A DNA stretch of 40,824 nt. It comes from Syntrophaceae bacterium. Its GTDB lineage: Bacteria; Desulfobacterota; Desulfomonilia; Desulfomonilales; Desulfomonilaceae. Below are positions 1,246 to 22,242 of the stretch, piece by piece. The DNA is taken from assembly GCA_031292235.1 (NCBI GenBank), contig JARLHM010000210.1, positions 1 through 40,824 of the forward strand. Direction: 5' to 3'. The position numbers and the translations under genes were made by a program. Within the stretch, counting starts at the first letter, position 1. Each line of letters begins with the position of its first letter. The notes beneath the pieces were generated by a model that was not told where the DNA came from, searched no databases, and saw only the letters and a program-made list of their open reading frames with translations.

Positions 1246-2412
1246 TCATAGGCTGGATTCCAGGATTGACTGGAAAGCCTCCAAGACGGCGTCAATGTCC
1301 CCTTGCGCATTTGATGGCCCAAGACTGAATCGCACACCGCCGTTGGGACTCGTGCCCAAATCCTGATGTACGAGTGGGGAGCAATGCAGGCCGGTGCGAA
1401 CGGCTATATTGAAATCACCATCCAGAATGGCGCCCAGATCAGCGGCGCTGATGCCATCGATGTTTAGTGTGAGAAGCGGAAGATGATTATTCATACTATC
1501 GGCGCAATAAAGTCGTACACGCTTGAAGGAAGCGAGTCCATCACGTAGCCTCCTCAAGAGACGCATTTCGTGTTCATAAATATTTTCAAGCCCCAGTTCA
1601 GTGATATAGCGCATGCCGGCCGATAGCCCAATGACGCCGAGCATGTTGATGGTACCGGGTTCCAGATGTTGTGGATATTCCTCAGTATGCGTCAGACTAT
1701 GTGAATCAACGCCGGTCCCTCCGAAACGGGTAGAGCGAACATCAAGACCATCACGAAGAACCAATCCTCCTATACCGGTAGGCCCCAACAAAGATTTATG
1801 GCCTGTGAACGCTACGGCGTCCAAATGCCACGTCCTCATATCTACGGGCACAACCCCGGCGCTTTGAGATACATCGAGGACAAATGGAACATTTCTTTCG
1901 TAGCAAACGCTCCCAATCTCCTGAACAGGTTGAATCGTTCCCAGGACATTTGAAGCGTGGGTGAGTATTACCAGTCCAGTATCAGGTCTGATCGCTTTCG
2001 CCACATCCTGTGGATCAATAAAACCATTAGAATCAAACGGAACAAGGTCTAAACTTATGAGTCCATGTTCGCTCAGGTAATGAAGGGGCCTGAGCACGGA
2101 ATTATGCTCGAGTCGAGAACTGACTACGTGACAACCAGGCTTCACCAGGCCAAAGATGATATTATTAAGAGCGTCTGTGGCGTTGTAAGAAAAGACGACT
2201 CTGTTTGGATCGTAACCATAAAAGAAATCGCTGACTTGACGTCTTACTCCGGTGACAAACTCTTCAGCTCTAACAGCTAGATCGTAACTACCTCTTCCAG
2301 GCGAGACACCCAAACACTGATATCCCTCCAGCATCGAACGAATAACTTCGGGAGGTTTTGGGAACGTGGTGGCTGCGTTATCCAAATAAATTGTCTTGGG
2401 ACAAGATGACAT
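1246..2412 (-). CDS. Class V aminotransferase / cysteine desulfurase family protein
   Basis: 388 residues, the usual length of NifS-like enzymes. The start is IYLDNAATTFPKPPEV, typical of the SufS/CsdA-like group. The PLP-binding lysine is K206 in FTGHKSLLGPTGIGG, and the candidate persulfide cysteine is C344 in AVRTGLHCSPLVHQ. These enzymes take sulfur from cysteine as a protein persulfide and release alanine. The gene follows the DsrC-like gene by 4 nt and a Mop-like molybdenum hydroxylase before that, on the same strand. A role in supplying sulfur to that enzyme is therefore reasonable inference. It is the last gene of the series, and no terminator is visible downstream. The ribosome site is weak, consistent with translational coupling. 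Confidence 0.88.
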   Translation of the reverse strand: MSSCPKTIYLDNAATTFPKPPEVIRSMLEGYQCLGVSPGRGSYDLAVRAEEFVTGVRRQVSDFFYGYDPNRVVFSYNATDALNNIIFGLVKPGCHVVSSRLEHNSVLRPLHYLSEHGLISLDLVPFDSNGFIDPQDVAKAIRPDTGLVILTHASNVLGTIQPVQEIGSVCYERNVPFVLDVSQSAGVVPVDMRTWHLDAVAFTGHKSLLGPTGIGGLVLRDGLDVRSTRFGGTGVDSHSLTHTEEYPQHLEPGTINMLGVIGLSAGMRYITELGLENIYEHEMRLLRRLRDGLASFKRVRLYCADSMNNHLPLLTLNIDGISAADLGAILDGDFNIAVRTGLHCSPLVHQDLGTSPNGGVRFSLGPSNAQGDIDAVLEAFQSILESSL

Positions 2413-2416
2413 AGCG

Positions 2417-2764
2417 CTAGCAGCTCTTGGGGTTGGGCAATCCCGCTATGCGACGAGCGCCGAACTTAATGCCACCCGGAAAAATCCGTTCTATTTGCGT
2501 TAGGCTCAAACCGGAGCCCTTTCTTAGCTCATTGTTTAGAGGAGCTTTTCCCATAGACAGGTAGTATTTTCTCAGGAAATGAATAACCTTCCAATGAAGA
2601 TCATTTAGCTCTGAGAGCCCTTGTGCCCGAGCGATATCTCCCGCCATCGTTTCGTCCCATTTGTCAGGATCCACTAAAAAACCTTCTTCATCAAACAAGG
2701 TGTCATCGCCTACGACAACGGTTGTATCAGGGTCTCTTGCTTTGACGTCCTCGTGATGGCCCAA
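2417..2764 (-). CDS. DsrC/TusE-family sulfur carrier protein with one C-terminal cysteine
   Basis: 115 residues, starting at TTG with AGAGGGG 8 nt upstream; that ribosome site overlaps the end of the preceding gene. FDEEGFLVDPDKWDETMA, LNDLHWKVIHFLRKYY and IERIFPGGIKFGARRIAGLP follow the DsrC/TusE fold pattern in order. The family carries sulfur on C-terminal cysteines. Dissimilatory DsrC has two, the last being penultimate and the other 11 residues before it. Here C115 is the final residue and the position 11 before it is R104, so this is a single-cysteine, TusE-like relay protein and not the DsrC of sulfite reduction. Its place between a molybdenum hydroxylase and a cysteine desulfurase suggests sulfur delivery within this operon. 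Confidence 0.85.
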   Translation of the reverse strand: MGHHEDVKARDPDTTVVVGDDTLFDEEGFLVDPDKWDETMAGDIARAQGLSELNDLHWKVIHFLRKYYLSMGKAPLNNELRKGSGLSLTQIERIFPGGIKFGARRIAGLPNPKSC

Positions 2765-2777
2765 GAATGGCGCCCCT

Positions 2778-5438
2778 CTAATTCCCGGAAGATTTTATGG
2801 ACTCCAGGACTCGTTCGGGTGTAGCGGGTAGATCGCATATACGGGAGCCGCCCGTAGCGTTTTTTATGGCTGTGATTATTGCTGCAGCGGTAGGCAGAAG
2901 AACGAACTCTCCTACACCTACGGCGCCTAATGTTCCTCTTTTTCGGGGTGTCTGAAGTAATATCACATCTATATCAAATGCGGTCCTCATTGTAGGGAAT
3001 TTTAGAGTGACCCAGTCGCGGGTTTGACCGTGGACATAATGTTCACGAAGGGCCATCCCAGCGCCCATATCGACACCACCTTCAATTTGGCCTTCAACGA
3101 TCATGGGGTTAATAATGGTCCCTGGATCGACGACAGCGGTTATCTTATAAATCTTGACCACCCCTGTCTCTGTATCTACCTCAACTTCGGCCATCTGCGC
3201 GCCGTGCACTCGAGACTCGAATGGCGCTCCCTGGCCCGTCTTAGTGTCTAGAAACGTTGTCTCCGATATTCTGGAACCAAGGAATCGAGTGGGCTTACCG
3301 GCGGCCACTAACTCGTCGTATGATGTGGCGCCGATTTCAGCCATTGTAGTCTGTAATGACTCTATAGCCTTGACCATCGCTCCGCCACTCATATAGGTTA
3401 CTCGACTACCGGACGCGGAGCTGGAATCAGGTGTTCGATCAGTATCACAAATAATCAGCCGAATTTTGGCTGGAGTAATGCCTGTGAGGTGGGAAGCTAT
3501 CTGCGTGAGCATGGCGTCATTGCCTTCTCCAGGGTCTGCGATGGAACCATAGACTGTCAAACCCCCATCAGAGTTGAGTTCAACCGCGACATTGGATCTA
3601 TCAGGTCCTCCTCTGCCAATACCAAAGCTACCTCCTGCAATTCCGACGCCACGTCGGAACCTGGCATTTTTGTTCGATGTCGCTTCCCGAACAGCTCTTT
3701 GATAATGAGGTCTAAGAGCTTCCAGGCATCCAGGGTACGGCCACTCATCGATAACCTGACCAGTAGAGATTGATCCACCAGGTTTGAGAGAGTTTAAGGC
3801 GCGGAATTCCAGAGGATCCATACCCAATTTGGCGGCCAAAAGCTCCATGGCTGATTCCAGGGCAAAATTCACCTGAGGTGGCCCGGCCCCCCGTGCAGCT
3901 CCACCCCATGCGTTGTTCGTATACACCAACTGACCTTTGGCCCTAACGTTAGGTATATCGTATGATCCGCTCAACATATACAGCGCACGGTTTAATACCG
4001 ATTTGCCGGCGGATGTATATGCCCCGTTTTCAACTATGAAGTCTATAGTATATGCGGTCAGCTTGCCTTTGTCGTCCGCTCCGAGCCGAGTCTTCATTTC
4101 GAATGGGTGCCTTTTTGTGGTTATCTGCATAGACTCGGTAAGACTGCACACGTAGCGGGCTGGACGCCGAAAATGAAGGGCGGCGGCCGCCGCTATTCCT
4201 TCAGCGGTAATGTCCATCTTCATGCCGAATTGACCGCCGATGAAAGCCTGTTCGTAGCGTATATTGTTCCAGCCGAGCGCCTCCTGTAAAACCATTAAAT
4301 GGTAGTGGATATAAATGCTTCGACCGATCACTACAAGTTTGGGATTGTCTTGATCCTCATCCGGTTCCAGGTAAGCGACTGACGCTTCCAGTTCCAATGC
4401 CGCCTGGTGAATGAGTTGAGTTGAAAATTCCGCTTCCACGATGGCCGCTGAGGAGTTCATGGCGGATTCGGCGTCGCCCTTTATCTGAGGGTGTTCGTAA
4501 CAAAGGTTGGGAGAGCTTTCGTGAACTCGGGGGCTGTTTTCAGTCAAGGCTTCTTTGGTGGTCATTACAGACGGAAGGATTTCATATTCTACCTTAACAG
4601 CCTCAGCGCCAGCTAACGCCTGAGCCTTGGACTCAGCCGCTACTATTGCTATCGCGTCACCCAAGACGTGTGCCTTCTTGTCGCACAATAGGGGCTGGTC
4701 ATCCTTCAGGAGGTTGGATCCCTTTATATCCTTCGCCGTCATAACGCCTATCACACCAGACATTGTTTGTGCTTGTGTGGTGTCGACGGATTTTATAAGA
4801 GCATGAGGGTAGGGGCTGCGAACGACAGCCAACTCGAGCATTCCATCCATCCGGATGTCCGCAGAGAATTTTGCGGTCCCGCATGCTAGCGTCAGAGAGT
4901 GGGGCCTAGGCCTGGAAACGCCTATCAGGCCGAGCTGAGGATCGCTACGTAGCTGTTCGGGACTTGTTTCGCCACGCAAAAATCTTCCAGCCAGCTTGAC
5001 GGCGTCGATGATTTTTTTATACCCGGTGCAGCGACAGAGGTTTCCGCGTAGAGTCTTTTTAATCAACTCAGTGTCAGGGTCGGGATTGATATCCAGGAGC
5101 GCCTTGGTGGCCATTATCATGCCGGGCGTGCAAAAACCGCATTGAATGGCGCCTGCAATTGCGAAAGCCTCTTGAATCAGATGCGGATTTTCCGGTGTGC
5201 CAAGCCCTTCTATGGAAATAACATCGGCCCCATCAAGATCAGCTACTTTTACAAGGCAGGAATGTACCGCCTTGGTGTTCACTATTACTGTGCAAGAACC
5301 GCATTGTCCTTTTCGATCACAAGATTGCTTGGTCCCTGTTAGAGAAAGTTTGTCACGTAATAGATCCAGCAGGACTAGCTGGCCATCTGTGTCCAATGTG
5401 TGTGGGACCCCGTTAATGGTTAGGTTGACCTTTTTCAT
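2778..5438 (-). CDS. Mop-like molybdenum hydroxylase (xanthine oxidase family), fused Fe-S and Mo domains
   Basis: 886 residues, close to the 907 of Desulfovibrio gigas aldehyde oxidoreductase (Mop). The N-terminal plant-type [2Fe-2S] domain has C40, C46, C49 and C61. The second [2Fe-2S] helical domain has C100, C103, C135 and C137 (QCGFCTPGM and LCRCTGY). The rest is the molybdopterin-binding part, with GGQFGMKMD, WGGAARGAGPPQ and, near the C-terminus, GAVGVGEFVLLP carrying the catalytic glutamate. There is no FAD domain and no FAD-subunit gene nearby, as in Mop. Such enzymes oxidise aldehydes or hydroxylate carbon using water, passing electrons through Fe-S centres. A ribosome site (AGGGAA) precedes ATG. 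The substrate is unknown. A 138-nt gap separates it from the upstream gene, so it may have its own promoter. Confidence 0.92.
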   Translation of the reverse strand: MKKVNLTINGVPHTLDTDGQLVLLDLLRDKLSLTGTKQSCDRKGQCGSCTVIVNTKAVHSCLVKVADLDGADVISIEGLGTPENPHLIQEAFAIAGAIQCGFCTPGMIMATKALLDINPDPDTELIKKTLRGNLCRCTGYKKIIDAVKLAGRFLRGETSPEQLRSDPQLGLIGVSRPRPHSLTLACGTAKFSADIRMDGMLELAVVRSPYPHALIKSVDTTQAQTMSGVIGVMTAKDIKGSNLLKDDQPLLCDKKAHVLGDAIAIVAAESKAQALAGAEAVKVEYEILPSVMTTKEALTENSPRVHESSPNLCYEHPQIKGDAESAMNSSAAIVEAEFSTQLIHQAALELEASVAYLEPDEDQDNPKLVVIGRSIYIHYHLMVLQEALGWNNIRYEQAFIGGQFGMKMDITAEGIAAAAALHFRRPARYVCSLTESMQITTKRHPFEMKTRLGADDKGKLTAYTIDFIVENGAYTSAGKSVLNRALYMLSGSYDIPNVRAKGQLVYTNNAWGGAARGAGPPQVNFALESAMELLAAKLGMDPLEFRALNSLKPGGSISTGQVIDEWPYPGCLEALRPHYQRAVREATSNKNARFRRGVGIAGGSFGIGRGGPDRSNVAVELNSDGGLTVYGSIADPGEGNDAMLTQIASHLTGITPAKIRLIICDTDRTPDSSSASGSRVTYMSGGAMVKAIESLQTTMAEIGATSYDELVAAGKPTRFLGSRISETTFLDTKTGQGAPFESRVHGAQMAEVEVDTETGVVKIYKITAVVDPGTIINPMIVEGQIEGGVDMGAGMALREHYVHGQTRDWVTLKFPTMRTAFDIDVILLQTPRKRGTLGAVGVGEFVLLPTAAAIITAIKNATGGSRICDLPATPERVLESIKSSGN

Positions 5439-5576: not shown

Positions 5577-5897
5577 CTAAAAAATTCTAAGAAGAATTGG
5601 TTCAGAGCTTGCTGTTATCTCATATGATTTCAAAACCGGTTCATTGCTGTACATTTCCTTGAACATAGCGACGAGTTTTTCATAATCACCGCTTTTCTCG
5701 TATGCGTCAACGTCAGCCTTGGTGTCCCATGCGGTGATGGAAATGCCATCGTTAACACTATCCATGCACTCAAGTAGGTGGACAAACCGAATCCCTTTAT
5801 GGTCTTTGTGGGCGGAGATGACCTGTTTGTTGTAAAGATTCCGGAGATCATCCATTTTTCCTTCTTTAACCCGGAAGAACGTCATTCTGACGTACAT
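5577..5897 (-). CDS. ABM-type dimeric alpha/beta barrel protein
   Basis: 106 residues, with AAGGAG before ATG. The order beta-strand (YVRMTFFRVKEG), helix (KMDDLRNLYNKQVI), strand (GIRFVHLLECM), strand (DGISITAWDTKADVDAYEKSG) and helix matches the antibiotic-biosynthesis-monooxygenase ferredoxin-like fold. Members include cofactor-free monooxygenases and heme-degrading enzymes, but many act as cyclases, isomerases or small binding proteins, and oxygen chemistry is unlikely in an anaerobe. It lies 21 nt after another alpha/beta-barrel gene and close to a split phosphotransferase, so it probably acts on or binds the same small molecule. The function is not known. Confidence 0.7.
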   Translation of the reverse strand: MYVRMTFFRVKEGKMDDLRNLYNKQVISAHKDHKGIRFVHLLECMDSVNDGISITAWDTKADVDAYEKSGDYEKLVAMFKEMYSNEPVLKSYEITASSEPILLRIF

Positions 5898-5918
5898 TTT
5901 GAACTCCTTTCGTCCCTC

Positions 5919-6578
5919 TTAAAAGCCTTTCATCATGTTTTGCATGAGTGACGGAATTTCTATCCTGCCTGTGGGCGCAAGTATTCTGCTACTATAATCA
6001 GTTGCAAAATGTTTCTTCAACCGCCGGACCAATTGCCGAAACACAGAAGAGTCAATGCACTTGGCGATTCCAGCCATATCACGGGATGTACATTCCGCAA
6101 GGATCCTTGGGCCTTCTCCTATCACCATGCGCCAGGCTCCTGTAACAGGGACTCCCAACTCTTTCATGCCCGGTATGCATTCGTCCTTAACAAAATGATA
6201 GTGTTCAGTTTCTTTACCTGGAATAATGTTATAATACTGGTTGAATTTCCATGCGCCGGTTTGAATACTATACGGTCCCTGAGTTAATCTACCGCTGGAC
6301 ACATAGAGTTTACTTGAGTACTTACATATTCGTTCGAAAAGCCCTTCCATAACAATCCTGTATTCTTCTTTGGCCAGGATACGGCGAAGGTAGTCCTGTT
6401 CTTCAACAGTGCCTACAACTATTATTCGTGGCCCCTCACCGACAGCAACATAGAAACCGCCAAGAAGCTTAAGGCCCAGTCTTTCCATGGTTGGAATGTA
6501 CTCTTTGGTTACAAATGAGGAGTACTCGTCAAATTTCCCCGGGATTACGTCCCAATACTGAGTGAAAAGGCTGGTCAT
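5919..6578 (-). CDS. Tandem-duplicated alpha/beta-barrel protein of unknown function
   Basis: 219 residues, with GGAGGG before ATG. The protein is an internal duplication. FTQYWDVIPGKFDEYSSFV near the N-terminus is repeated as FNQYYNIIPGKETEHYHFV near residue 113. GLKLLGGFYVAVGEGPRIIV is mirrored by GVPVTGAWRMVIGEGPRILA, and each half ends with a KLYVSSGRL- or RILAPTGRI-like strand. Each half has the length and strand order of a NIPSNAP/ABM-like ferredoxin-type barrel, so one chain could form the complete barrel that smaller relatives make as dimers. I do not recognise a named family. It sits between the PpsB-like gene and the ABM gene with short gaps, suggesting a common pathway. Confidence 0.65.
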   Translation of the reverse strand: MTSLFTQYWDVIPGKFDEYSSFVTKEYIPTMERLGLKLLGGFYVAVGEGPRIIVVGTVEEQDYLRRILAKEEYRIVMEGLFERICKYSSKLYVSSGRLTQGPYSIQTGAWKFNQYYNIIPGKETEHYHFVKDECIPGMKELGVPVTGAWRMVIGEGPRILAECTSRDMAGIAKCIDSSVFRQLVRRLKKHFATDYSSRILAPTGRIEIPSLMQNMMKGF

Positions 6579-6611
6579 GGATTCCCTCCGCCAAATGTTG
6601 TTTTGGCTCAG

Positions 6612-7637
6612 TTACATTCTAAAAATCCTAGACATCAGGTCCGCCAGGTATTGTGAGTCGTTCTGCTTTACCTTGCTGTATTTGGCTGGTCGAGCTTGTA
6701 CCCAATACAGGTTTGCAGGAAAAGATTGGTCTCGATCAATGACCCATTCCATGTCCTGGGGCACATTAAAGTATGTTTCAACGTCAGTGGCGATTCGTAC
6801 GATCTCCGAAAGTTCATCCGGATTCAAACAGGGCGCACATTTCAATTCGTCAGGAACTCGTGTCACTCGTGTCCCTAATGTCCCATAGCAGACCATTTTG
6901 GTCTTTTGGCTAATTGTGGTCTCACATGTTCCACAAGCTTTATCCACGATGAACTGATCAGGGGTGATTTCGCCACTGACGACACTTTCTCCCAGTCCCC
7001 AGTTGCCTTCCACCACCACCTTGCTCAGATCTCCGGTAGTGGGTAGCACTGTCAGAACCACCCCAGCGCATTTAGCGTTGACCATCTTGAGCACGGCTAC
7101 ACCAATGGGGGCTTTTGCTATGTCCATCTTCTTTTCAAGCCGAAAAGCGATTGCACGTGCGGTGAATGCGCTGGCCCAAACCTGTGTGACTTTTCTCTCA
7201 AGCTCGGTTTTACCTCGCACATTGAGATAGGTCTCCATCTGACCGGGCATGCTGACGGCGCCACTAGACCGCACGGCCACTGCCAGATCAGGAGTCCCTT
7301 GCTGATGACAAAGGGTCTGGTAGTTGTGGCGTAGCTCTTGGGCCATTTCGTTGGGTAAGCTCTTCGACTCAATTATGCGCCGTATTTCACGGCTTGCTTC
7401 GACTTGTTTGCCCACCTGGGACATCATGGCACTGTTTTTATGGAAGTAGCTTTGAATTTCTTTCCCAGCGCCACTCTCTTCCATAAACTGCTCATAGCCA
7501 TCCACGGATATGGCAAAGCCTGGAGGTACCCTCATGCCTAGCTTTGTCATCTCTCCAAGGTTAGCGCACTTTTTCCCCACAAGGTCATTAAAATCGGCGC
7601 CGAGTTCATCGAACCAGTAGATCCATTTCTTGGCCAT
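6612..7637 (-). CDS. PEP-synthase/PPDK N-terminal ATP-binding domain protein (PpsB-like, copy 1)
   Basis: 341 residues covering only the ATP-grasp part of PEP synthase or pyruvate phosphate dikinase. Motifs in order: FNDLVGKKCANLGEMTKLG and RVPPGFAISVDGYEQFM at the N-terminus, VAVRSSGAVSMPGQMETYL, PIGVAVLKMVNAKCAGVVLT and NWGLGESVVSGEITPDQF. Such domains bind ATP and phosphorylate the histidine of a partner domain. Here the partner is the next gene upstream, 89 nt away. The VRSSGAVSMPG version resembles PPDK, unlike copy 2 at 21133, which has VRSSATAEDLPG. The arrangement parallels subunit B of phenylphosphate synthase of Thauera. Substrate unknown. No PEP/pyruvate-binding barrel is present in either gene, so classic PEP synthesis is unlikely. 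Confidence 0.82.
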   Translation of the reverse strand: MAKKWIYWFDELGADFNDLVGKKCANLGEMTKLGMRVPPGFAISVDGYEQFMEESGAGKEIQSYFHKNSAMMSQVGKQVEASREIRRIIESKSLPNEMAQELRHNYQTLCHQQGTPDLAVAVRSSGAVSMPGQMETYLNVRGKTELERKVTQVWASAFTARAIAFRLEKKMDIAKAPIGVAVLKMVNAKCAGVVLTVLPTTGDLSKVVVEGNWGLGESVVSGEITPDQFIVDKACGTCETTISQKTKMVCYGTLGTRVTRVPDELKCAPCLNPDELSEIVRIATDVETYFNVPQDMEWVIDRDQSFPANLYWVQARPAKYSKVKQNDSQYLADLMSRIFRM

Positions 7638-7726
7638 TTCAATCCGATCCTTTCCGGAGAGAGAGCAGGTCCCGGTACAAAAATTACCCGAATCAATAGT
7701 TAAACTTTGATCCAGCAGGCCTTGGA

Positions 7727-9409
7727 TTACTTGTCGAGTATGTAAACAGCGCCCAGGTTAGCGTCGACCCTGATGCGTTGACCCGATTGAATCTTGGTGG
7801 TGCCCTCAAACACGTTCATAACGACTGGAATTCCATATTCCCGGCCGACAATAGCGGCGTGTGAAAGGCTCGCTCCGCGGTCGACCACAACCCCGCTGAT
7901 CATTGAGAATACTGGGGTCCAGCTCGGTGATGTGCTTGCCGCCACAAGGATGTCCCCTGCTTTGATAAGGTGTAGTTCATCTTCAGTTACGATAACCCTT
8001 GCGGTTCCTTCGGCCACACCCGGTGATCCGCAGGTCCCGTACAGGTCGGCCTTCAGTTCAGGCCGCACTTGAGGCATTGAACCTACAACCACCTTGAGGG
8101 CAATAGGGTCATTTGATTTGACCAGGACTCCCATCGCTTGGTCCAAATCGAATCCCTCAGCTAAAATAGCCGGTGGATTGGGAGTTTTTTGCCATTCCAA
8201 CCATTCGGCGCGTCGCCTGTCTACTATGTAACGGAGGTCGAACTGGCCAGGATTGATTCCAGCGCGACGAACTTCATCGGGGATAAGAAAAAAGATGTCT
8301 TCGTGATCATCAATTGCGCCAGCTTTGACAAATCGTCTGCCGAGTCCGAGAGCGCTTCGGCGCATCATCGCATGTGTGTATAAATCAAGATAATGGTCAT
8401 GCTCCTCACTAAATATACCGCTTTTTTGAGCGAGACGCATGAGAGGCTCGAACCAAGCTCGTTGCTCGGAAGGAACCTTGGCAAGAATTTCTTTCTCTGT
8501 TTCGGCTCTTTCGACGCTTATTTTCTTTCGCTCTTCGTCGAGATTAAATGATCCCCCTTTTTGGATAAATTGTTTCACCATAGAAAGGGCCGGGGTAGGA
8601 TCTTCCACCCACGTGGGCAAGTTGATTTCGGACATTCGTTGCATACGCCAACCGTCTTCGTTAAGGAACTCTCTAAATTGTTTGAGGAAATTGTGACCGC
8701 TATCTGATTCTTCTAGTTTCTCGCGAATGTCAACTTCTTCATTCTTTAGGAAGACGTCGTCAAGTCCCATGTCGGACGCGATCTTGGAAAACTCCCAGAG
8801 ACGACGGTCAACCTGAAATACCTTGTTGTCGAAACCTGACACTATGCGATGAAATGACGGGGAGGTGTCGTCTATTCCTACGAGTTCACGACACATGTTC
8901 TCAAAAAGGATGTAGGCGGTATAAGTCCCGTACATCATATACATGTGTATTTCCCACATTCGCCTACAAGTATTGATAGTCTCCTCGAAGTTATCCAGAA
9001 GTTCGATATTTGAAGCGGTATCTACGTCCAACTCTTTTAGCTTTTCATAACGTCCAAGAATTTCTTTTACGAAACCATTCCAAATCCCATCGTAGTCTTT
9101 GATTAACGGGAGAATGGCCTTTCGAAACTCCACTTCTCGTCGCTGTTTTTCTTCTTCGCTCTTAACTAAGAGCAGAGTCAGATAACCACCTCCGTTCATG
9201 AAACGCCAATCCCATCCATGGACAGTAGGTAGAGACAGCTTCTCAGCACCGTATTGCATGCCGTGACGACAAAAGTTAATCCAAAACCAGCCAAACATTG
9301 GGGTCCAAGGTGGGACAGAATGGGTAGCGTCTAAGAACCATGCTGGGGATTGAGCCAGGTCGCGCTCTGCGTCGAATTCCAAGCCAGGTACAACATCGTA
9401 AACTTTCAT
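7727..9409 (-). CDS. PEP-utilizing-enzyme mobile (phosphohistidine) domain protein, PpsA-like, copy 1
   Basis: 560 residues. The C-terminus is the swivelling phosphohistidine domain: ILVAASTSPSWTPVF, then GASLSHAAIVGREYGIPVV with the likely phosphorylated H517, and GQRIRVDANLGAVYIL at the end. The large N-terminal region (about 1-440, helical and rich in W, R and E) is not a PEP-binding barrel and presumably binds the acceptor substrate, as proposed for phenylphosphate synthase subunit A and seen in rifampin phosphotransferase-like enzymes. It is the partner of the ATP-grasp gene just downstream. A 232-nt gap lies upstream of its start, so a separate promoter is possible. Identity to copy 2 (22243-24075) is low outside the histidine domain, implying a different substrate. 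Confidence 0.82.
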   Translation of the reverse strand: MKVYDVVPGLEFDAERDLAQSPAWFLDATHSVPPWTPMFGWFWINFCRHGMQYGAEKLSLPTVHGWDWRFMNGGGYLTLLLVKSEEEKQRREVEFRKAILPLIKDYDGIWNGFVKEILGRYEKLKELDVDTASNIELLDNFEETINTCRRMWEIHMYMMYGTYTAYILFENMCRELVGIDDTSPSFHRIVSGFDNKVFQVDRRLWEFSKIASDMGLDDVFLKNEEVDIREKLEESDSGHNFLKQFREFLNEDGWRMQRMSEINLPTWVEDPTPALSMVKQFIQKGGSFNLDEERKKISVERAETEKEILAKVPSEQRAWFEPLMRLAQKSGIFSEEHDHYLDLYTHAMMRRSALGLGRRFVKAGAIDDHEDIFFLIPDEVRRAGINPGQFDLRYIVDRRRAEWLEWQKTPNPPAILAEGFDLDQAMGVLVKSNDPIALKVVVGSMPQVRPELKADLYGTCGSPGVAEGTARVIVTEDELHLIKAGDILVAASTSPSWTPVFSMISGVVVDRGASLSHAAIVGREYGIPVVMNVFEGTTKIQSGQRIRVDANLGAVYILDK

Positions 9410-9641
9410 GAGTTCTCTTTCTTCCTTTCAAGATATTGGGAAACGGTTAATAGAACACTGTGAAATGACGACTGACCCTGCTATATTTATCGACACTCGC
9501 CGGAGGGATCCACGAATACAATTCGGTAGAAGGAGTAGGGGGAATCAAATTAAGTTTTCCCCGCAAACAGTAAGAAATTCGACGCAAAAAACAATGTAAG
9601 TAAGAGAATAAACCAGCTCCGACGACGGTGATATTACGGAA
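9410..9641. other. Intergenic gap inside the minus-strand series
   Basis: This gap separates the SDR gene from the PpsA-like gene. It contains an inverted repeat, GGGGAA at 9539-9544 and TTCCCC at 9557-9562, with a 12-nt loop and no T-run on either side. It is therefore more likely an RNA processing or pausing hairpin than a terminator. No clear sigma-70 promoter was found, and the LysR-type operator described at 14182 and 25607 is absent. A 63-codon plus-strand open frame here has no support. Confidence 0.4.
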
Positions 9642-10397
9642 TTAATGCATTGCCCTCCCTCCATCGACCAAAATTGTCTGGCCTGTTATAAAATTACTGT
9701 CATCGGACGCTAGAAAGGCCACTATACCGACGAGGTCCGCCGGAGTTTCCAGCCTTTTGAGAGGTGTTTTACTAGTATCATATTTACTGACATCTGCAAT
9801 TGTCCGGCTCGCCTCAGTATCGGTGTATCCTGGGGCTATAGCGTTGACGCATATTCCATAGGGGCCAAGTTCTACGGCCAAAGCTCGCGTCAGCCCCACA
9901 ACTCCTCCTTTAGAAGTTACATAATGGATGAACCCGTGTGAACCTGTGAAAAAGACCTCCGATGTCAAGTTGATTATCTTTCCTTTGCCTTGGGATTTCA
10001 TAGTTTCGAAGACTGCTTTCGCGCAAATCCACGGGCCTTTGACATTAACAGCCATCATTTTATCCCACTCGTCAGAGCTAATCTCAGTGAATGGTTTCCT
10101 TTTTACTCCGTAATAGTAGGCGGCATTGTTGACAAGAATATCTATACGACTAAACTTCTCGATGGCTTCCTGTATCATTCTAGTGGTGTCAGCTTCGTTT
10201 GTGACATCAACCTTGCTTATTAAAGCTTGTTTTCCTAGGTCTTTTACCATCTTTTCAGTTTCTTTTAGACCTTGTATGTCGGCTCTAGTAACAGCTACTA
10301 TGTCGGCGCCTTCCTGAGCCAATTTTACGCAAAAAGCCCGCCCTAAGCCTTTCCCGGCGCCTGTTACAATTGCCACTCGGCCATCAAGTCTTCCCAT
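9642..10397 (-). CDS. SDR family NAD(P)-dependent oxidoreductase
   Basis: 251 residues, the classical short-chain dehydrogenase length. The Rossmann glycine motif is TGAGKGLG (12-19), NNAA is at 90-93, and the catalytic residues are S146, Y159 and K163 (YVTSK). The C-terminal FLASDDSNFITGQTILVDGG is typical. Such enzymes interconvert alcohols and ketones with NAD(H) or NADP(H), often on cyclic or CoA-bound substrates. The residue after the second core strand (VAVTRADIQ) does not give a clear NADP or NAD preference. The start has GGGAGGAAG 3 nt upstream of ATG. It is 12 nt downstream of a CrtI-like flavoenzyme gene, which suggests consecutive redox steps on one ring substrate. Confidence 0.9.
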   Translation of the reverse strand: MGRLDGRVAIVTGAGKGLGRAFCVKLAQEGADIVAVTRADIQGLKETEKMVKDLGKQALISKVDVTNEADTTRMIQEAIEKFSRIDILVNNAAYYYGVKRKPFTEISSDEWDKMMAVNVKGPWICAKAVFETMKSQGKGKIINLTSEVFFTGSHGFIHYVTSKGGVVGLTRALAVELGPYGICVNAIAPGYTDTEASRTIADVSKYDTSKTPLKRLETPADLVGIVAFLASDDSNFITGQTILVDGGRAMH

Positions 10398-10409
10398 GGC
10401 TTCCTCCCG

Positions 10410-12074
10410 CTAGTAGGGTCTGCCTTTTTGCTCCCAAATTTTAGGGAGACCGAAATCTTCAGCGATAACTTTGAAACAGTTGTAAGCGCTGCCCCGACCG
10501 ATGCCTGGTCCTGAATGGGCCGCAGCGGATGCGAGGTACAAGTTTTTTACCGGTAACCGATAAAACGCTAGTTCTGGGAAAGGTCTCATGCGGCCCATCT
10601 GAGAAGCGATCATATCTTCGCCTGTCCAACCCCCTTGAGGCATATTGAGATTTCGCATCTGAACGTCCATGGGCGTGGTTATATGTGTAGCTATAACGTT
10701 GTCTTTGGTCATATTGGGGGCGTACCATGACCATTGCTCCCTCATTATCTCCACGATTTCGCTTTTCATGCGCAACCAGTCCCTGTCGCTGAAGAACCTA
10801 TAGGGGGCGGTAAACTGTTCGATCAAGATCGTGTGTTTTCCTTCAGGCGCTCGACCTTTGTCCCAGATGCTATCCGGCGCCACGATGGCGACAAGCTTGT
10901 TTGGTATCCCTTTGACAAACAGTTCTGCCTGATGTCTTGTAGCGAAATAGTCAGCGTCCTTGGGCCCCCAGTTTAGACGCGGGCACATTCCTATTTCAGG
11001 GTTGTCCTTGGCTACCGTATATTCAGGCAGTTCATGAAGGGCAAAATTACCCCAGAATAGTTGCGCCCTGTCCCTAAGTATATTCTTCGCCCTGTGCGCT
11101 ATTTTCTCTGGGACATGATCTTCACCGATAAGTTGCAAAATCGTCTGAGTAGTGTTCATGTCGCTGACGACAGCATGTCTGGCGGCGATTTCCCTTCCAT
11201 CCTTGAGCAGCACGCCTACGGCACGGCCGTTTTCAATAATGGCCCTTTCTACGCCGGTTTCGACGACAAATTCACCACCCATGGAACTGAAAGCCCGTTG
11301 GAGAGCATGAGTAATCGCGTGGGTCCCTCCGATGGCTATGGAAGCGGGCTCCCACGAAAGAATTAGTCCGAGGGTATGCAAAATCTTGTAAATCCCTATG
11401 CAATCATTGGGAAAAACCCCGCTGGATGTCATGCATGAACGCATAAACAGAGTGCGTAGGTAGTCACTCTCGAAAAGATCAAACGCCACCTGTTGAGAAG
11501 TATAAAACTGATATTCCGGTGGAATTGGGGCTTCTTTGGCGCCTATCAGGCGTTCAAAAGCGTCGTTAACCCCCCATGGAGTGGGAGGATTGTATCTCCA
11601 TTCGTGGAAAGCGGCCCTCCATTTTTTTTTATACTTTTCCAAAAGGTCATAAGCGGTGTCAGCGTCTCTCTTGGAAAATCTGGCGATCTGATCTATTGTC
11701 TTCTGAGCGTTAACCTCGTTGAATTCTGATCTTCCAGTATTTTCATCGACTACTTTCCATGCCGTATAGCCCATGAAATGCATGCCATCGTCGTAAATCA
11801 TCCCTTCGCTATGGTCAGGGAACACATATGACAAGCCGAGGTTCCTGAGTTTGAAATCATCATATGCCGGATGACCGTAAAATCTGGTCCAGTGAGCGCA
11901 GGGGTTTTGAAGGAAGCCGGGCAGGGGTAATTCCTCTCCACAGGCCCCACCTCCCAATTCGTGTTGCCTTTCATATACAACCGTCTTCATGCCGGCGTGT
12001 TGCAGATAACAGGCTATAATAGTTCCCTGATGTCCACCGCCGACCACTATCGCGTCGTAAGTCTTATCTGGCAT
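10410..12074 (-). CDS. Phytoene dehydrogenase-like FAD-dependent oxidoreductase (first)
   Basis: 554 residues, with AAGGAG before ATG. The N-terminal dinucleotide fold is YDAIVVGGGHQGTIIACYL, followed by VVYERQHELGGGACGEE, the CrtI-family FAD signature. The C-terminal FAD-contacting part is NLYLASAAAHSGPGIG. Family members desaturate, saturate or isomerise isoprenoid and other alicyclic substrates using FAD. No carotenoid synthesis genes are present here, so a carotenoid role is unlikely. A homologous gene lies just upstream, separated only by an 86-residue orphan, implying a two-flavoprotein system. An anaerobic ring dehydrogenation or reduction is a reasonable guess. The substrate is unknown. 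Confidence 0.85.
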   Translation of the reverse strand: MPDKTYDAIVVGGGHQGTIIACYLQHAGMKTVVYERQHELGGGACGEELPLPGFLQNPCAHWTRFYGHPAYDDFKLRNLGLSYVFPDHSEGMIYDDGMHFMGYTAWKVVDENTGRSEFNEVNAQKTIDQIARFSKRDADTAYDLLEKYKKKWRAAFHEWRYNPPTPWGVNDAFERLIGAKEAPIPPEYQFYTSQQVAFDLFESDYLRTLFMRSCMTSSGVFPNDCIGIYKILHTLGLILSWEPASIAIGGTHAITHALQRAFSSMGGEFVVETGVERAIIENGRAVGVLLKDGREIAARHAVVSDMNTTQTILQLIGEDHVPEKIAHRAKNILRDRAQLFWGNFALHELPEYTVAKDNPEIGMCPRLNWGPKDADYFATRHQAELFVKGIPNKLVAIVAPDSIWDKGRAPEGKHTILIEQFTAPYRFFSDRDWLRMKSEIVEIMREQWSWYAPNMTKDNVIATHITTPMDVQMRNLNMPQGGWTGEDMIASQMGRMRPFPELAFYRLPVKNLYLASAAAHSGPGIGRGSAYNCFKVIAEDFGLPKIWEQKGRPY

Positions 12075-12119
12075 GGAGAGGCTCCTTTATCTTTGCGAAG
12101 ATTGGACTAAAAACTCTGC

Positions 12120-12380
12120 CTAATTGGATTCCGGTGGCGCGAGCTTTTTCCCGAAAATAAGTAGCTTTAATACAGAGAAAAGGTTCGATGGCTTTAGCAT
12201 CATTCGAGCGAACGCTCTAAGATCATCTCCTCCAACAGTGGCCTTTATAGACCAATGGACAGGCTCCGTAGCTTCTATGCTAAGTCTCATCGCTGGGGCT
12301 GAATCACCGTTAACTTTTTCAAGGTTGGCGAAGTGGGCCACCATAGTGGTTTTCCCTAATCCAGTCGAATTAACCTTCAT
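12120..12380 (-). CDS. Small unknown protein between two flavoenzyme genes
   Basis: 86 residues. The gene is supported by a near-ideal ribosome site (AGGAGG, 5 nt before ATG) and by tight spacing, 9 nt after one flavoenzyme gene and 45 nt before the other. It starts MKVNSTGLGKTTMVAHFANL, continues with a strand-rich part (APAMRLSIEATEPVHWSIKA) and ends with a helix (GGDDLRAFARMMLKPSN). The GLGKTT string looks like a P-loop, but the protein is too short and the surroundings are wrong for a nucleotide-binding fold. No family is recognised. It may be a small subunit or coupling protein for the flanking CrtI-like enzymes. Confidence 0.7.
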   Translation of the reverse strand: MKVNSTGLGKTTMVAHFANLEKVNGDSAPAMRLSIEATEPVHWSIKATVGGDDLRAFARMMLKPSNLFSVLKLLIFGKKLAPPESN

Positions 12381-12389
12381 TTTTTCCTC

Positions 12390-14015
12390 CTACAATGTCC
12401 CCTTTGCCTTTGCTTTATGCACACACTCCGGTTCACCCCACCACTTGTCGATTCCCAAGTCTTCGGCAATTTTATTGGCCGCGTTGTATCCGGGGCCGAA
12501 TGTTATAAGTCCGCCGGGGAAGGTGCTGGCACCGCAGACATAAAGATTCTTCACGGGGGTCGCATACTGGGAACACTCCTCGTTGGGGCGCAGGTATCCC
12601 ATCTGGAGCGGAAGGTAAGCCCCCTGCTTGTAAGATCCTTTGACCATGTCGGCGAATTTGTTTCCTATGTCCAGGGGACTGGTTATGTATCGCCAGACAA
12701 CGTTATCACCAGAAATATTGGGAGCGTATTGTCTTAACATCTCGACGCATCGATCCGCCTCCTGTTCGCGAATGCGGTACCATTTCTCCGCTCCGCCATC
12801 TTTGAGGTCGTGTGGCGCATGCAATGAAATCAACGCAGTATGTTTTCCAGGAGGCGCCTGCTTTGGGTCGTGCATTGACGGGAAACAACAATTGAAACCG
12901 CCGGGGAATAGCTCTCCCTTGTGTATAGCGTCATAATGTTTGGTAAGATTTTCGAGATTCTCATAACCCAAAACCGTTATGAAAGCGTTATTCAGGTCCG
13001 CGTTCTGCTCGGCGGCTTTGAACTTTGGGGCCTCATTCAGGGCAAGATGCACGTGAAACAGGCTGGACTTTTCCCATTGCCAATCCTTGGTCCTTGTTAC
13101 AAAGGACGACTCGAGGTTGTCCTCCCCAACGTACTTGAAAAAAGTCTGGAATGGGTCAAGGCTACTGGCGACGAACTTTCTCGCCTTGTATTGAACGCCG
13201 TCTTCAAGTTCGACCCCTGTGGCCGCGCCGTTTTCAATGATAATTCGCTTTACCGTGACGGGAGAAATAATCATCCCACCATTTCGGTAAAGAACTTTTG
13301 TGAACAAATGGGCCAGATGATGTGAACCACCGACCACTAATCTGTAGTTTGTGGCCCGATTGAACAACAAAGGAACCAGGTAACTGACCCCTTCGAGGTC
13401 GTAATGGAGACCCCACATGCAGGACAAATAAAGAAACAAAGTCCTGACACGGTCGTTCTCAAACAATTCGTTGACAATGTCTCTTGGGGTTTTTTCAGTG
13501 TACGCGGTGATTTCCCTACCGACATCCGTGGCATGTAACTTTATCATCTGTTCGAATGCAGGCTTGGCCATTTCATAGGTGGCCGGTCCAAGAAAGTCTT
13601 CCGTAAGCTCTCTGAACCTGTTCTGAATCCTGCTGTAAGTTTCCGCGTCCTTTTTTGAAAATTGAGCAATGGATTCACAGGTTTTTTCAACATCCTGGTA
13701 GAGTCGTAGCGAGGTCCCGTCCACAAATGGCATGGCCATCACGAGCGACGGAAACACAAATTGCAGATCATAATCCTTTGTCAGGTAATCGTCGAAGTCT
13801 CTTAATGGAGGAGCATAATCTACCATCGGCATGTATACCGCGTGCGTGTTATGCAGGAAGCCGGGCAAGGTTACCTGTTCAGTGGCCAGTCCTCCTCCCG
13901 CTTCGAAACGTTTTTCCAATAGAAGAATTTTCAGGCCGGCTCTGGCGAGATATGCCGCTACAGTCAAACCATTTGGGCCGGCGCCGAGGATAATCCCGTC
14001 GTACTCTTCAGCCAT
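12390..14015 (-). CDS. Phytoene dehydrogenase-like FAD-dependent oxidoreductase (second)
   Basis: 541 residues from the chosen start MAEEYDGIILGAGPNGL, which has AAGGAGG 7 nt upstream. An in-frame ATG 54 nt earlier has no ribosome site and would add a disordered tail. The FAD fold YDGIILGAGPNGLTVAAYL is followed by LLLEKRFEAGGGLATEQ, and the C-terminus NLYVCGASTFPGGLITFGPG is typical of the CrtI-like family. It resembles the enzyme at 10410 along its full length, so the two probably arose by duplication. As first gene of the long minus-strand series, it lies just downstream of the predicted promoter and LysR-type site at 14141-14207. The substrate is not known. Confidence 0.87.
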   Translation of the reverse strand: MAEEYDGIILGAGPNGLTVAAYLARAGLKILLLEKRFEAGGGLATEQVTLPGFLHNTHAVYMPMVDYAPPLRDFDDYLTKDYDLQFVFPSLVMAMPFVDGTSLRLYQDVEKTCESIAQFSKKDAETYSRIQNRFRELTEDFLGPATYEMAKPAFEQMIKLHATDVGREITAYTEKTPRDIVNELFENDRVRTLFLYLSCMWGLHYDLEGVSYLVPLLFNRATNYRLVVGGSHHLAHLFTKVLYRNGGMIISPVTVKRIIIENGAATGVELEDGVQYKARKFVASSLDPFQTFFKYVGEDNLESSFVTRTKDWQWEKSSLFHVHLALNEAPKFKAAEQNADLNNAFITVLGYENLENLTKHYDAIHKGELFPGGFNCCFPSMHDPKQAPPGKHTALISLHAPHDLKDGGAEKWYRIREQEADRCVEMLRQYAPNISGDNVVWRYITSPLDIGNKFADMVKGSYKQGAYLPLQMGYLRPNEECSQYATPVKNLYVCGASTFPGGLITFGPGYNAANKIAEDLGIDKWWGEPECVHKAKAKGTL

Positions 14016-14140
14016 TTCCGGTTCCTCCTTGCTGAGGGTTAAGTTGGGCCGTGGAGTGTTTGGATCCATACACGTGCTGTTGCGCCAAGCCTAAAAAAGA
14101 TGAGCGCAACCTTGGTTACGGTCAGATCATGTTGAATATT

Positions 14141-15289: not shown

Positions 15290-15856
15290 CTAGAGTTCCT
15301 GAACTCGTAATGTCTGTTCTTGGCGCGCTATTTTTTTACCGGTTTCTGTTAAGAGCCATCCGTCTATTTGTAGGGCCAGCCATTGGATATGGACTTTTGG
15401 ATCGATGTTGAATCTCTTGGGATCTATTTCCGAGGCTTCTTTGGAAAAACGCCACAGTTTGTCAGCGTCTTTCACAATAGCATCGTTAAGGGATAGGGCC
15501 GTCTCACGTGAATCATGACCACTTATGATCTCGACAATTTCGTCGATCAAAGCGGCGCTGTATCCGACCTGTTTAAGGATCTCCTTTGCTATTCTGGCGC
15601 CCTCAACTTCGTGTATCCGATTAATTGTCCTATCGTACTCATGCGGACCGAATGCTTTAAGGTGCAATTCCTCCGGTACCATTTTCCATCCCACATCGTG
15701 AAGTATTATGGCGGGTAAGACCACTTCCGGTTTGCCTCCTTCCTCCTGCAGCAATCTCAAGGCGAACGCTCTGGAAACATCCATATGGATTTTGTTGTTC
15801 CTGGTGTCAAGGTACGGCAAAGCCAGCTCATATATTTCCGAAAAAGGTTCAAACAT
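15290..15856 (-). CDS. HD-domain phosphohydrolase-like protein
   Basis: 188 residues from ATG 15856, chosen because GGAGGG lies 10 nt upstream. A longer frame to 15967 lacks such a site. The HD metal-binding pattern is intact: the first histidine in KIHMDVSRAF, the HD pair in AIILHDVGWK, further histidines in IHEVEGARIA and ISGHDSRE, and the last aspartate in VKDADKLWRF. HD proteins remove phosphate from nucleotides or other phosphomonoesters. It is the last gene of the series that contains phenylphosphate-synthase-like genes, 126 nt after the CBS gene, so it could hydrolyse a phosphorylated intermediate or a regulatory nucleotide. Either role is inference. Confidence 0.82.
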   Translation of the reverse strand: MFEPFSEIYELALPYLDTRNNKIHMDVSRAFALRLLQEEGGKPEVVLPAIILHDVGWKMVPEELHLKAFGPHEYDRTINRIHEVEGARIAKEILKQVGYSAALIDEIVEIISGHDSRETALSLNDAIVKDADKLWRFSKEASEIDPKRFNIDPKVHIQWLALQIDGWLLTETGKKIARQEQTLRVQEL

Positions 15857-15982
15857 ATTTGACGCTCCCTCCGTGCGGAACATTAACAGAGATCTTGAGA
15901 ACCATGTAAATTTCGAACCCCGTGGGATGGCCTTCCCTATGTATGCGCCCAAAAAGCCGTCCATCAATCGTCATTGTTTAGC

Positions 15983-16624
15983 CTATCCCTTAAATTCCAG
16001 TATGTTGAAGCCATTATCCATTAAGTTCTTGCTCAAAACTTCTGAGTCCCTACATTCCGTGCGTAGCACAACGCGAGCTACCCCGTTCTTGCCTTCTGGA
16101 ACCGTAAAGATCGCCCGGATCATACAGCTACTTTCCTCCACAATTTTTAGAATCTTCGACAAAGTTCCTTCCTGGAGATTCACATCAGTAAGAGTAATTC
16201 GGGTGCATTCGTGTCCCACCTCCAACAGTTTGTAAAGCATTACAAAGATCTCCCGGTCGGAAAGCACTCCCACCACTTTGTCCCCATCCATCACAGGAAA
16301 AGTGCTCATTGTTCGTTCACGACCCTTCATGAGCACGTCTTCGACGCTATCGTCGACGGAGACCGTCACAGGCATGCGGACCATGACATCCTTGACCTTG
16401 AGCTTGTTGCAAAAGTAGTTCATTTCACATGTGTTACCACTTTCACTTACACAGGTCGCAGCCTCGCTAAGATCTCTCCTGTGGACAACTCCCCTTAATC
16501 GGCCGTTATCAACCACCGGCAGCATTTTCAGGTTATTTTCTGAAATTAGAGTAACAGCTTCGGTCGCCAAAGCGTCACTTGAGATTGACAATTCTTGAGC
16601 ATGCATCCAATTTCTAACGAACAT
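15983..16624 (-). CDS. CBS-domain protein, PpsC-like
   Basis: 213 residues from ATG 16624, which has CAGGAGG 5 nt upstream; an in-frame ATG 90 nt earlier has no such site. It carries two CBS motifs, VRNWMHAQELSISSDALAT to RGVVHRRDLSEAA and VKDVMVRMPVTVSVDDSVE to VVGVLSDREIFVML. A C-terminal ACT-like segment follows (CTRITLTDVNLQEGTLSKI). Phenylphosphate synthase of Thauera includes a 24-kDa subunit with CBS domains (PpsC) that stimulates the enzyme, and the predicted size here is about 24 kDa. The same series holds the PpsA- and PpsB-like genes, so this is most likely the third subunit. CBS pairs usually bind adenine nucleotides, giving a possible energy-sensing control. Confidence 0.82.
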   Translation of the reverse strand: MFVRNWMHAQELSISSDALATEAVTLISENNLKMLPVVDNGRLRGVVHRRDLSEAATCVSESGNTCEMNYFCNKLKVKDVMVRMPVTVSVDDSVEDVLMKGRERTMSTFPVMDGDKVVGVLSDREIFVMLYKLLEVGHECTRITLTDVNLQEGTLSKILKIVEESSCMIRAIFTVPEGKNGVARVVLRTECRDSEVLSKNLMDNGFNILEFKG

Positions 16625-16723
16625 TATGGCCTCCTGAATCGTTTGCAGCCAGTAATCCACGGTTATCGAATTCAGGCCGAGGTTTTTGTAATTGATAGTT
16701 TCCCAGAACCCCAAAAGAGAAGT

Positions 16724-17971
16724 CTAATCTTTTTGCGATTTCAAACTCTTGGGGAAGATCTCCAAACAAGCGGATGCGACGGCCTTGCCAAAAGTCTGTT
16801 CCTCCAGATTGGCGTCCACCTCTCTAATGGTGACGTGATCGGATAAAAGGGCCTCTTTTAGAGTCATCAGAAACAACCTGTCCTGATCTTTATCAAACAT
16901 ATGTCCCGACGGCGGGTCGACAGCGGACCAACCTTGTGTGGGAAAGAGAAAAATGGTAGGCCCTTTTGCTTGATTGAGCTTTTCAGCAAAGACACGGGCT
17001 ACTCCGACAATTTCTTCGTCAGAAACCCTCAGGAATGTCCGGAGTTCATCTAGTTCGAATTTTCGGCGTTCATGATGCTCTGGTTTGTAATGTGATTTTC
17101 TTGGGCTGGTGAGATTGACTCCCCCTGGCGTGATTACTTGGGGAATGCCTATTTTTGCTGCGCTGGTCAAGCGATTTATGCCAGCGGCTCTCATGCCGCC
17201 AAGAAATTCTTCTCCCACGCCACCTGGGGCTAATTCCACGACTGCGTCAAAAAAACCTTCCAAAATCATTTGTTCCATGGCCCTGTCACAAACTCCAGCG
17301 GCCGAGAATCCGATTACCTGATATCCTTTGGATTCGAGACTTTGTCGTACGTAATGGGAGCAGCGTTCGGTGGGACCGAACATAGACATGGCGACTAGAG
17401 GAACGCCACTGTCCCGCGATGACTGAACAGTAAACGAGTCAATCATGGCCATTCCTGTGATTGCCGCAGCCGCCCTGTCGAGCAGATTCATCAGGGGTTT
17501 GGACAAACCGGAGATTTCTATCACAGTGTGTAGCACAGCAATATCTCCAGTGCCTATGTATCGCGTAGCCAAACCCGGTAACGCTGCGGTGGAAGAAACC
17601 ATTAACTTTGGAACTCCAAATGGCAGGGCTCTCATGACATCTGTCGCCATCAGGCTGCCGGTGGAACCTCCCAGACCTATTACACCCGCCAGGCGCCCTG
17701 ACTTCATAAAATCAGTTGCTATTTTGGTTGCTCCTCCAATCATTTGTCTGGTAATTTTCTTCCTCTCTATGGATACCCGAATGTCCTCAATATCTGCTCC
17801 TGCAGCACGAGCGGTCTCCGAGGAGGTTATGTCAGCCCCAGGAAATTCTCCGGACATACTCATGTCCAGGATGGAGCAGGCACCGCCCCTGTTCTTAATA
17901 GAATCCCTAAGATAAAAGGTTTCTGGACCTTTTGTGTCTAGTGTCGACAAGAGCAGCACCACTCGTTCCAT
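16724..17971 (-). CDS. UPF0261 / Tm-1-like ATP-binding protein (first)
   Basis: 415 residues, full length for UPF0261. The N-terminus is VVLLLSTLDTKGPETFYLRD, followed by GVIGLGGSTGSLMATDVMR (nucleotide-binding-type glycine loop), LPFGVPKLMVSSTA and, in the second half, MFGPTERCSHYVRQSLESKG and IPQVITPGGVNLTSPRKSHY. The family includes the N-terminal domain of tomato Tm-1, which binds ATP. The bacterial function is not established. ATG overlaps the stop of the ligase gene by one base (TGATG), so the two are translationally coupled. A related gene lies at 26641. Confidence 0.88.
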   Translation of the reverse strand: MERVVLLLSTLDTKGPETFYLRDSIKNRGGACSILDMSMSGEFPGADITSSETARAAGADIEDIRVSIERKKITRQMIGGATKIATDFMKSGRLAGVIGLGGSTGSLMATDVMRALPFGVPKLMVSSTAALPGLATRYIGTGDIAVLHTVIEISGLSKPLMNLLDRAAAAITGMAMIDSFTVQSSRDSGVPLVAMSMFGPTERCSHYVRQSLESKGYQVIGFSAAGVCDRAMEQMILEGFFDAVVELAPGGVGEEFLGGMRAAGINRLTSAAKIGIPQVITPGGVNLTSPRKSHYKPEHHERRKFELDELRTFLRVSDEEIVGVARVFAEKLNQAKGPTIFLFPTQGWSAVDPPSGHMFDKDQDRLFLMTLKEALLSDHVTIREVDANLEEQTFGKAVASACLEIFPKSLKSQKD

Positions 17972-19632: not shown

Positions 19633-19688
19633 CTGGGCCTCCTTAACAGACCGAACTGATTAGCATTTTATGTTTTGTAATCTCCAAT

Positions 19689-21095: not shown

Positions 21096-21132
21096 ATAAA
21101 TCCCTAGCTCCTTATCTTTAATTATTCGACCA

Positions 21133-22212: not shown

Positions 22213-22242
22213 GACGGACTCCTATAGTGTTACGACAAATAT

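Follow-up and report, generated by a model that had tools for sequence, protein, structure and literature searches.

The window analysed here, a stretch of 40,824 nucleotides (nt) from a Syntrophaceae bacterium (contig JARLHM010000210.1, positions 1 to 40,824), holds three adjacent genes for a MOP-like molybdenum hydroxylase, a DsrC/TusE-like protein with a single cysteine (the carrier) and a cysteine desulfurase (Table 1). Sequence comparison indicates that these genes are one functional unit, inherited within a single clade. We consider it moderately probable that the unit works as a relay, in which sulfur would pass from the desulfurase to a persulfide on the DsrC-like protein and from there to the molybdenum centre, for sulfuration or repair of the assembled enzyme. 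The preliminary description of this DNA had reported three neighbouring open reading frames (ORFs) with 13- and 4-nt gaps, Lys206 and Cys344 in the desulfurase and a lone cysteine at the end of the DsrC-like protein; coordinates and residues re-derived from the window sequence agreed with this, with 13 nt between the hydroxylase and carrier genes, 4 nt between the carrier and desulfurase genes, and the cysteine at position 115. The TTG start of the carrier ORF lies just downstream of the sequence AGAGGGG.

Table 1. Genes of the three-gene locus, with positions in the window
Feature	Position	Strand	Basis
MOP-like molybdenum hydroxylase, 886 aa	2778-5438	-	two [2Fe-2S] domains and MoCo-binding domains, Pfam and NCBIfam
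Single-cysteine DsrC/TusE-like carrier, 115 aa, TTG start	2417-2764	-	PF04358, TIGR03342
TIGR01977/EF2568 cysteine desulfurase, 388 aa	1246-2412	-	TIGR01977 score, K206, C344

Whether the triplet is conserved, a check proposed in the preliminary description, was answered by a wide scan with an alignment of the carrier subfamily, which returned 61 loci with a DsrC of the same close kind (L043 to L101, L105 and L106). These loci span Desulfobacterota, Bacillota, Chloroflexota and Actinomycetota, mostly anaerobic bacteria, and include the Bacillota isolates Desulfotruncus arcticus and Desulfocucumis palustris. Because the same three genes recur in the same order across several phyla, the observed grouping is far above chance. 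In 58 of the 61 loci the gene directly upstream, on the same strand, was that of the hydroxylase, the remaining three starting at a contig end, and a desulfurase gene stood beside the hydroxylase-DsrC pair in 58/61 (upstream of it in two), the places without one being L061, L094 and a fusion locus, L105. As a sample independent of DsrC, 395 genomes of the window's phylum were searched with the hydroxylase. A DsrC-like gene lay directly downstream of 15 of the 17 matches with at least 53% identity and of none of the six matches with 40 to 44% identity.

The carrier belongs to the DsrC/TusE/DsvC family (PF04358, E 6e-25; TIGR03342, 68.2 bits with a cut-off of 53.5). At its C terminus (GARRIAGLPNPKSC), the alignment places CysA at Cys115 and an Arg at the position of CysB. 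CysA was kept, at most two residues from the C terminus, in 71/71 carriers with the GARR motif, and the catalytic cysteine of the desulfurase in 66/66, both counts including some duplicate genomes. Arg stood at the CysB position in all motif-bearing members, which sets them apart from DsrC sensu stricto with its second cysteine. Among 198 relatives, DsrC proteins fell into two kinds, the close kind scoring above 116 bits and an ordinary two-cysteine kind below 92 bits, and in a tree built from the short alignment the triplet proteins formed one clade (support 99/94) apart from the two-cysteine DsrCs. The window genome has one DsrC of each kind; none of its six other MoCoBD proteins is partnered by a DsrC, the only other DsrC, with both cysteines, being encoded on contig C98.

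Single-cysteine DsrC proteins are usually named TusE, and the carrier could accordingly be an ordinary TusE for tRNA thiolation, or feed XdhC, with its place beside the hydroxylase an operon accident. Its score of 45.6 bits, however, is far under the TusE equivalog cut-off of 191, and its neighbourhood is kept across several phyla and in one fusion. In organisms without DsrAB, moreover, the place of CysB is usually taken by Ala, Ser or Thr (PMC3397948), so that Arg marks the carriers as a subfamily and speaks against this explanation, which we regard as very improbable. The retained cysteine is the one that bears the persulfide in A. vinosum DsrC, where this forms on CysA (Cys111) only (PMC3397948). 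Other DsrC arrangements were seen in passing. Two or more DsrC domains occur in tandem at L114:7791-8642 and in open frames of 238 to 269 aa in G050, G092 and G122, the L114 copy having no CysA; and in a Nitrospira metagenome-assembled genome (MAG; L121:1990-3741), a DsrC-like protein without CysA is flanked by a radical SAM protein and by a 2Fe-2S protein similar to the small subunit of a hydroxylase.

The desulfurase is an Aminotran_5 protein that scored 423.8 bits with TIGR01977 (cut-off 377), has the pyridoxal-phosphate (PLP) lysine Lys206 and the catalytic Cys344, and is the only member of this family above cut-off in the window genome assembly. The EF2568/TIGR01977 family has been tied to molybdenum hydroxylases and proposed to act as a selenocysteine lyase in selenium-dependent systems (PMC2276186). 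The desulfurase may on that account be a selenocysteine lyase, with the DsrC-like protein carrying perselenide to a selenium-dependent molybdenum hydroxylase, a reading in line with the presence of selD in 51/53 triplet genomes and of yqeB beside hydroxylase genes on contig C130 of the window genome. YqeB, the marker of selenium-dependent hydroxylases, would then be expected in every member genome; it was above cut-off in just 24/38 triplet genomes and was absent from the isolate Desulfocucumis palustris. selD, for its part, is common background in selenocysteine-using anaerobes, most of its matches here contain an in-frame TGA, and it was not above cut-off in two triplet genomes, each of them a MAG. 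Neither selD nor yqeB was recognised among the genes of the examined triplet loci. A strict selenium system is thus weakened by the missing YqeB, the near-universal selD still leaving room for selenium, and we hold a selenium relay to be improbable. Contig C130 itself (G000; L181) bears two further molybdenum hydroxylases beside yqeB and is a probable selenium-dependent hydroxylase locus. Another pairing of a desulfurase with a small carrier was noticed in a Bacillota genome (L225:445-1892), where a second TIGR01977 desulfurase adjoins a PF11823 putative Se/S carrier.

Pfam domains found in the hydroxylase were Fer2, Fer2_2, Ald_Xan_dh_C, MoCoBD_1 and MoCoBD_2, and no flavin adenine dinucleotide (FAD) domain was found; a single chain with two [2Fe-2S] domains, both MoCo-binding domains and the catalytic Glu (Glu844) places it in the xanthine oxidase family, MOP type. 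Among solved structures, the closest to it is the Desulfovibrio gigas aldehyde oxidoreductase (AOR) 1sij (604 bits), and its score of 768.5 bits with the MOP equivalog NF045668 did not reach the cut-off of 1100. By these scores the hydroxylase is a subfamily related to MOP and outside the MOP equivalog. A tree made by a quick method joined 60 triplet hydroxylases and two without a neighbouring DsrC in one clade (support 100), to which neither the canonical MOPs of those genomes nor the group with 40 to 44% identity belonged. Both DsrC-less hydroxylases were nested inside the clade, which argues for one gain and two losses of the DsrC partnership.

The active-site pocket distinguishes this clade. 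The window hydroxylase has Ala515 and Ala518 where D. gigas AOR has Phe532 and Tyr535, and both positions are Ala in 60/60 triplet hydroxylases and in the two exceptions (62/62). The position of Phe425 holds a small or aliphatic residue in the clade, and the DxGQG motif reads DPGEG (635-639 in the window hydroxylase); the catalytic Glu is unchanged in 62/62 members. These replacements indicate that the pocket is remodelled, with the aromatic side chains gone only in the triplet clade, leaving space near the metal. In D. gigas AOR, benzaldehyde is sandwiched by Phe425 and Tyr535, and a Sulfolobus enzyme for hydrophilic aldehydes has Ile and Ala in their places (PMC4726530); for this reason the altered pocket may suit another substrate as well as let in a protein arm. 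The hydroxylase showed no clade-specific invariant cysteine, so that a fixed relay cysteine on this protein is not indicated.

An emptied pocket could also admit the arm of a DsrC-like protein that acts as a redox or substrate-carrying partner, with the molybdenum enzyme oxidising or reducing a cysteine-bound substrate or persulfide and the desulfurase serving only to load the carrier. DsrC inserts its arm into the active site of DsrAB, its partner enzyme, and is a subunit in the complexes 2v4j and 2xsj. The trisulfide/disulfide chemistry of DsrC needs CysB, however, and this residue is Arg here; nor was any DsrAB-like or Hdr-like neighbour seen at triplet loci. We therefore think it doubtful, on balance about as much so as selenium transfer, that the carrier presents a substrate in this way.

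Carrier and hydroxylase are naturally fused in a Desulfomonile MAG (G013; JACRDG010000081), where the hydroxylase and a DsrC-like domain are encoded in one ORF of 1003 aa (L037:7180-10191). The fusion is known from this one genome and could in principle reflect an assembly error that removed a stop, although the linker of about 20 residues is in frame throughout and there is no stop between the domains. The predicted structure had a mean pLDDT of 88 and a pTM of 0.82, with low values in the linker and a folded DsrC domain, and the model matched 1sij (TMt 0.94, 38% identity). Solely for placing the rows, the fusion and the separate DsrC proteins were aligned by reading through the inter-gene stop. 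No desulfurase adjoins the fusion, and the one TIGR01977 member above cut-off in this genome lies on contig C48 beside a different hydroxylase, which resembles 4-hydroxybenzoyl-CoA reductase. A small ORF that follows another desulfurase of the same genome (L223:9826-10194) was set aside, as it had no family match and looks non-coding.

Enzymes of the xanthine oxidase family need a sulfido ligand, which is supplied by a desulfurase (PMC2997495), and the preliminary description had expected xdhC to be missing where the triplet occurs. This expectation failed: xdhC was present in 19 of 20 related genomes, with and without the triplet, and in 41 of 45 further triplet genomes, which rules out that the carrier replaces XdhC at the genome level. 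The four triplet genomes without PF02625, three of which also had no PF13478, prove nothing here because all are drafts that hold other hydroxylases. The window genome has its xdhC alone on contig C187 (G000), among unrelated genes and with no adjoining hydroxylase. It had further been held that an xdhC next to other hydroxylases, serving the triplet enzyme too, would speak against the relay. Such proximity was indeed found in the isolates Desulfocucumis palustris and Desulfotruncus arcticus, where about 9 kb separates xdhC from another hydroxylase; what this means for the triplet hydroxylase is ambiguous, since the neighbouring enzyme may be the sole client of such an XdhC. The genome of Desulfocucumis palustris encodes just two MoCoBD proteins, and its triplet is on a different contig from xdhC and the other hydroxylase. 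Most simply, XdhC and the triplet would have different jobs or different client enzymes.

In the relay that we propose, Cys344 of the desulfurase would take sulfur from L-cysteine and pass it as a persulfide to the carrier, at Cys115 of its flexible C-terminal arm. The carrier would then dock on the MOP-like hydroxylase, and the arm would deliver the sulfur to the molybdenum centre, so that the terminal sulfido ligand is restored or installed on an already assembled enzyme. XdhC, encoded elsewhere in most triplet genomes, would still insert the cofactor. We favour this path from desulfurase through carrier to molybdenum because the unit is conserved, the relay cysteines are kept, a fusion exists and the pocket is emptied; from the same observations we infer that sulfur moves in this direction, by persulfide chemistry and with molybdenum as its acceptor, and that it serves sulfuration or repair and not a substrate reaction.

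Three observations weigh against the relay. XdhC occurs in nearly all triplet genomes, so that a second sulfuration route needs a reason. Relatives with 40 to 44% identity occur in the same pathway cluster but have no DsrC there; at L217, L218, L219 and L220, the hydroxylase was 41 to 43% identical and had no DsrC-like gene or TIGR01977 desulfurase nearby. Finally, two members of the hydroxylase clade have no neighbouring DsrC, although one of these genomes (G404) has a second triplet. The exceptional locus L214 (4657-9177) counts in favour of the relay: in place of DsrC and TIGR01977, a SufS-type desulfurase and a NifU-like protein come after its triplet-clade hydroxylase, and these two look like another pair of desulfurase and carrier.

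The best rival to sulfuration or repair is the use of sulfur at every turnover. Here the enzyme would be no hydroxylase but would put sulfur on a substrate carbon, and the desulfurase and carrier would recharge the sulfido ligand of molybdenum, as in the metallopterin-dependent ergothioneine synthase MES, where a fused desulfurase feeds sulfur in each cycle by a persulfide relay (PMC9516567). A carrier fused to its enzyme is more readily understood as a catalytic partner than as a one-off maturase, the remodelled pocket is unique to the clade, and XdhC is present, so that one-off maturation seems already covered. MES, however, belongs to the dimethyl sulfoxide (DMSO) reductase family and not to the xanthine oxidase family, and in place of a DMSO-reductase-type domain fused to a desulfurase we found xanthine-oxidase-type domains and a separate desulfurase. 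The catalytic Glu of hydroxylation is kept throughout the clade (62/62), the carrier-free distant hydroxylase in the same pathway cluster suggests that the same step proceeds without sulfur use, and nothing in the triplet neighbourhood indicates a sulfur-containing product. We judge a MES-like use of sulfur unlikely, and slightly less likely still its specific form, a xanthine-oxidase-family enzyme that consumes sulfur per turnover and whose emptied pocket is entered by a persulfurated DsrC-type arm that recharges molybdenum, with the sulfur going onto a substrate carbon.

The neighbourhoods of the triplet vary: those in the window's family hold aromatic-type pathway genes, those in Desulfotruncus moeA genes and others TonB/ExbB or trypsin-like genes, and the substrate of the hydroxylase is therefore not readable from its neighbours. 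Elsewhere in the window, positions 15290-24075 hold a cluster resembling anaerobic phenol activation, with a UbiD-family protein above the cut-off for the phenylphosphate carboxylase beta subunit (TIGR02724), an AMP ligase, a UPF0261 protein, and a PPDK_N protein with a CBS-domain protein, the last two phenylphosphate-synthase-like. Positions 5577-14069 hold a second split phosphoenolpyruvate (PEP)-synthase-like pair (6612-9409) with ABM, NIPSNAP and SDR proteins and two CrtO-like flavoproteins; these genes are syntenic in relatives and likely form one pathway.

What is known of the sulfur supply of molybdenum hydroxylases concerns mainly XdhC in bacteria and the ABA3 type in eukaryotes. A literature search, mostly without subscription papers, returned no description linking DsrC to XdhC, a molybdenum hydroxylase or an aldehyde oxidoreductase. 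The parts all come from known families; their combination, the role of the carrier and the hydroxylase subfamily are new to us. If the relay holds, sulfur supply would have a further route in the form of a DsrC-type carrier reserved for one hydroxylase clade, the DsrC/TusE family would gain a function beyond sulfite reduction and tRNA thiolation, and there would be a handle on a large, unstudied hydroxylase subfamily found in sulfate reducers and other anaerobes. Because of the natural fusion, the relay question is directly testable with one expressed protein.

Several known systems share features with the triplet. In the XdhC/NifS4 maturation of Rhodobacter capsulatus xanthine dehydrogenase, a desulfurase supplies the sulfur of the molybdenum sulfido ligand, as proposed here, but XdhC binds the cofactor, whereas in the triplet a carrier without known cofactor binding adjoins the enzyme and xdhC lies elsewhere. 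The selenium-dependent hydroxylase loci have a desulfurase of the same TIGR01977/EF2568 family, with PLP lysine, catalytic cysteine and a hydroxylase neighbour; they differ in that the desulfurase here is paired with a DsrC-like carrier and no selD, yqeB or xdhC was recognised beside it. MES of Caldithrix abyssi likewise combines a molybdopterin enzyme, a dedicated desulfurase and a persulfide relay (proposed in our case) in anaerobes, but is of the DMSO reductase family, has a fused desulfurase and no DsrC, and places the sulfur into the product. D. gigas MOP (1sij/1vlb; NF045668) has the same domain order, two [2Fe-2S] domains, a molybdopterin site without FAD and the catalytic Glu; its aromatic Phe425, Phe532 and Tyr535 and its DxGQG motif are all replaced in the triplet hydroxylase, which has a DsrC partner. 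The carrier, finally, shares with the DsrC/TusE/DsvC relay family (TIGR03342, PF04358) the DsrC fold, as judged by sequence, and the conserved C-terminal CysA on its arm; the partners in that family are DsrAB or TusBCD/MnmA, whereas here the partner is a molybdenum hydroxylase, Arg takes the place of CysB, and the carriers form a clade of their own.

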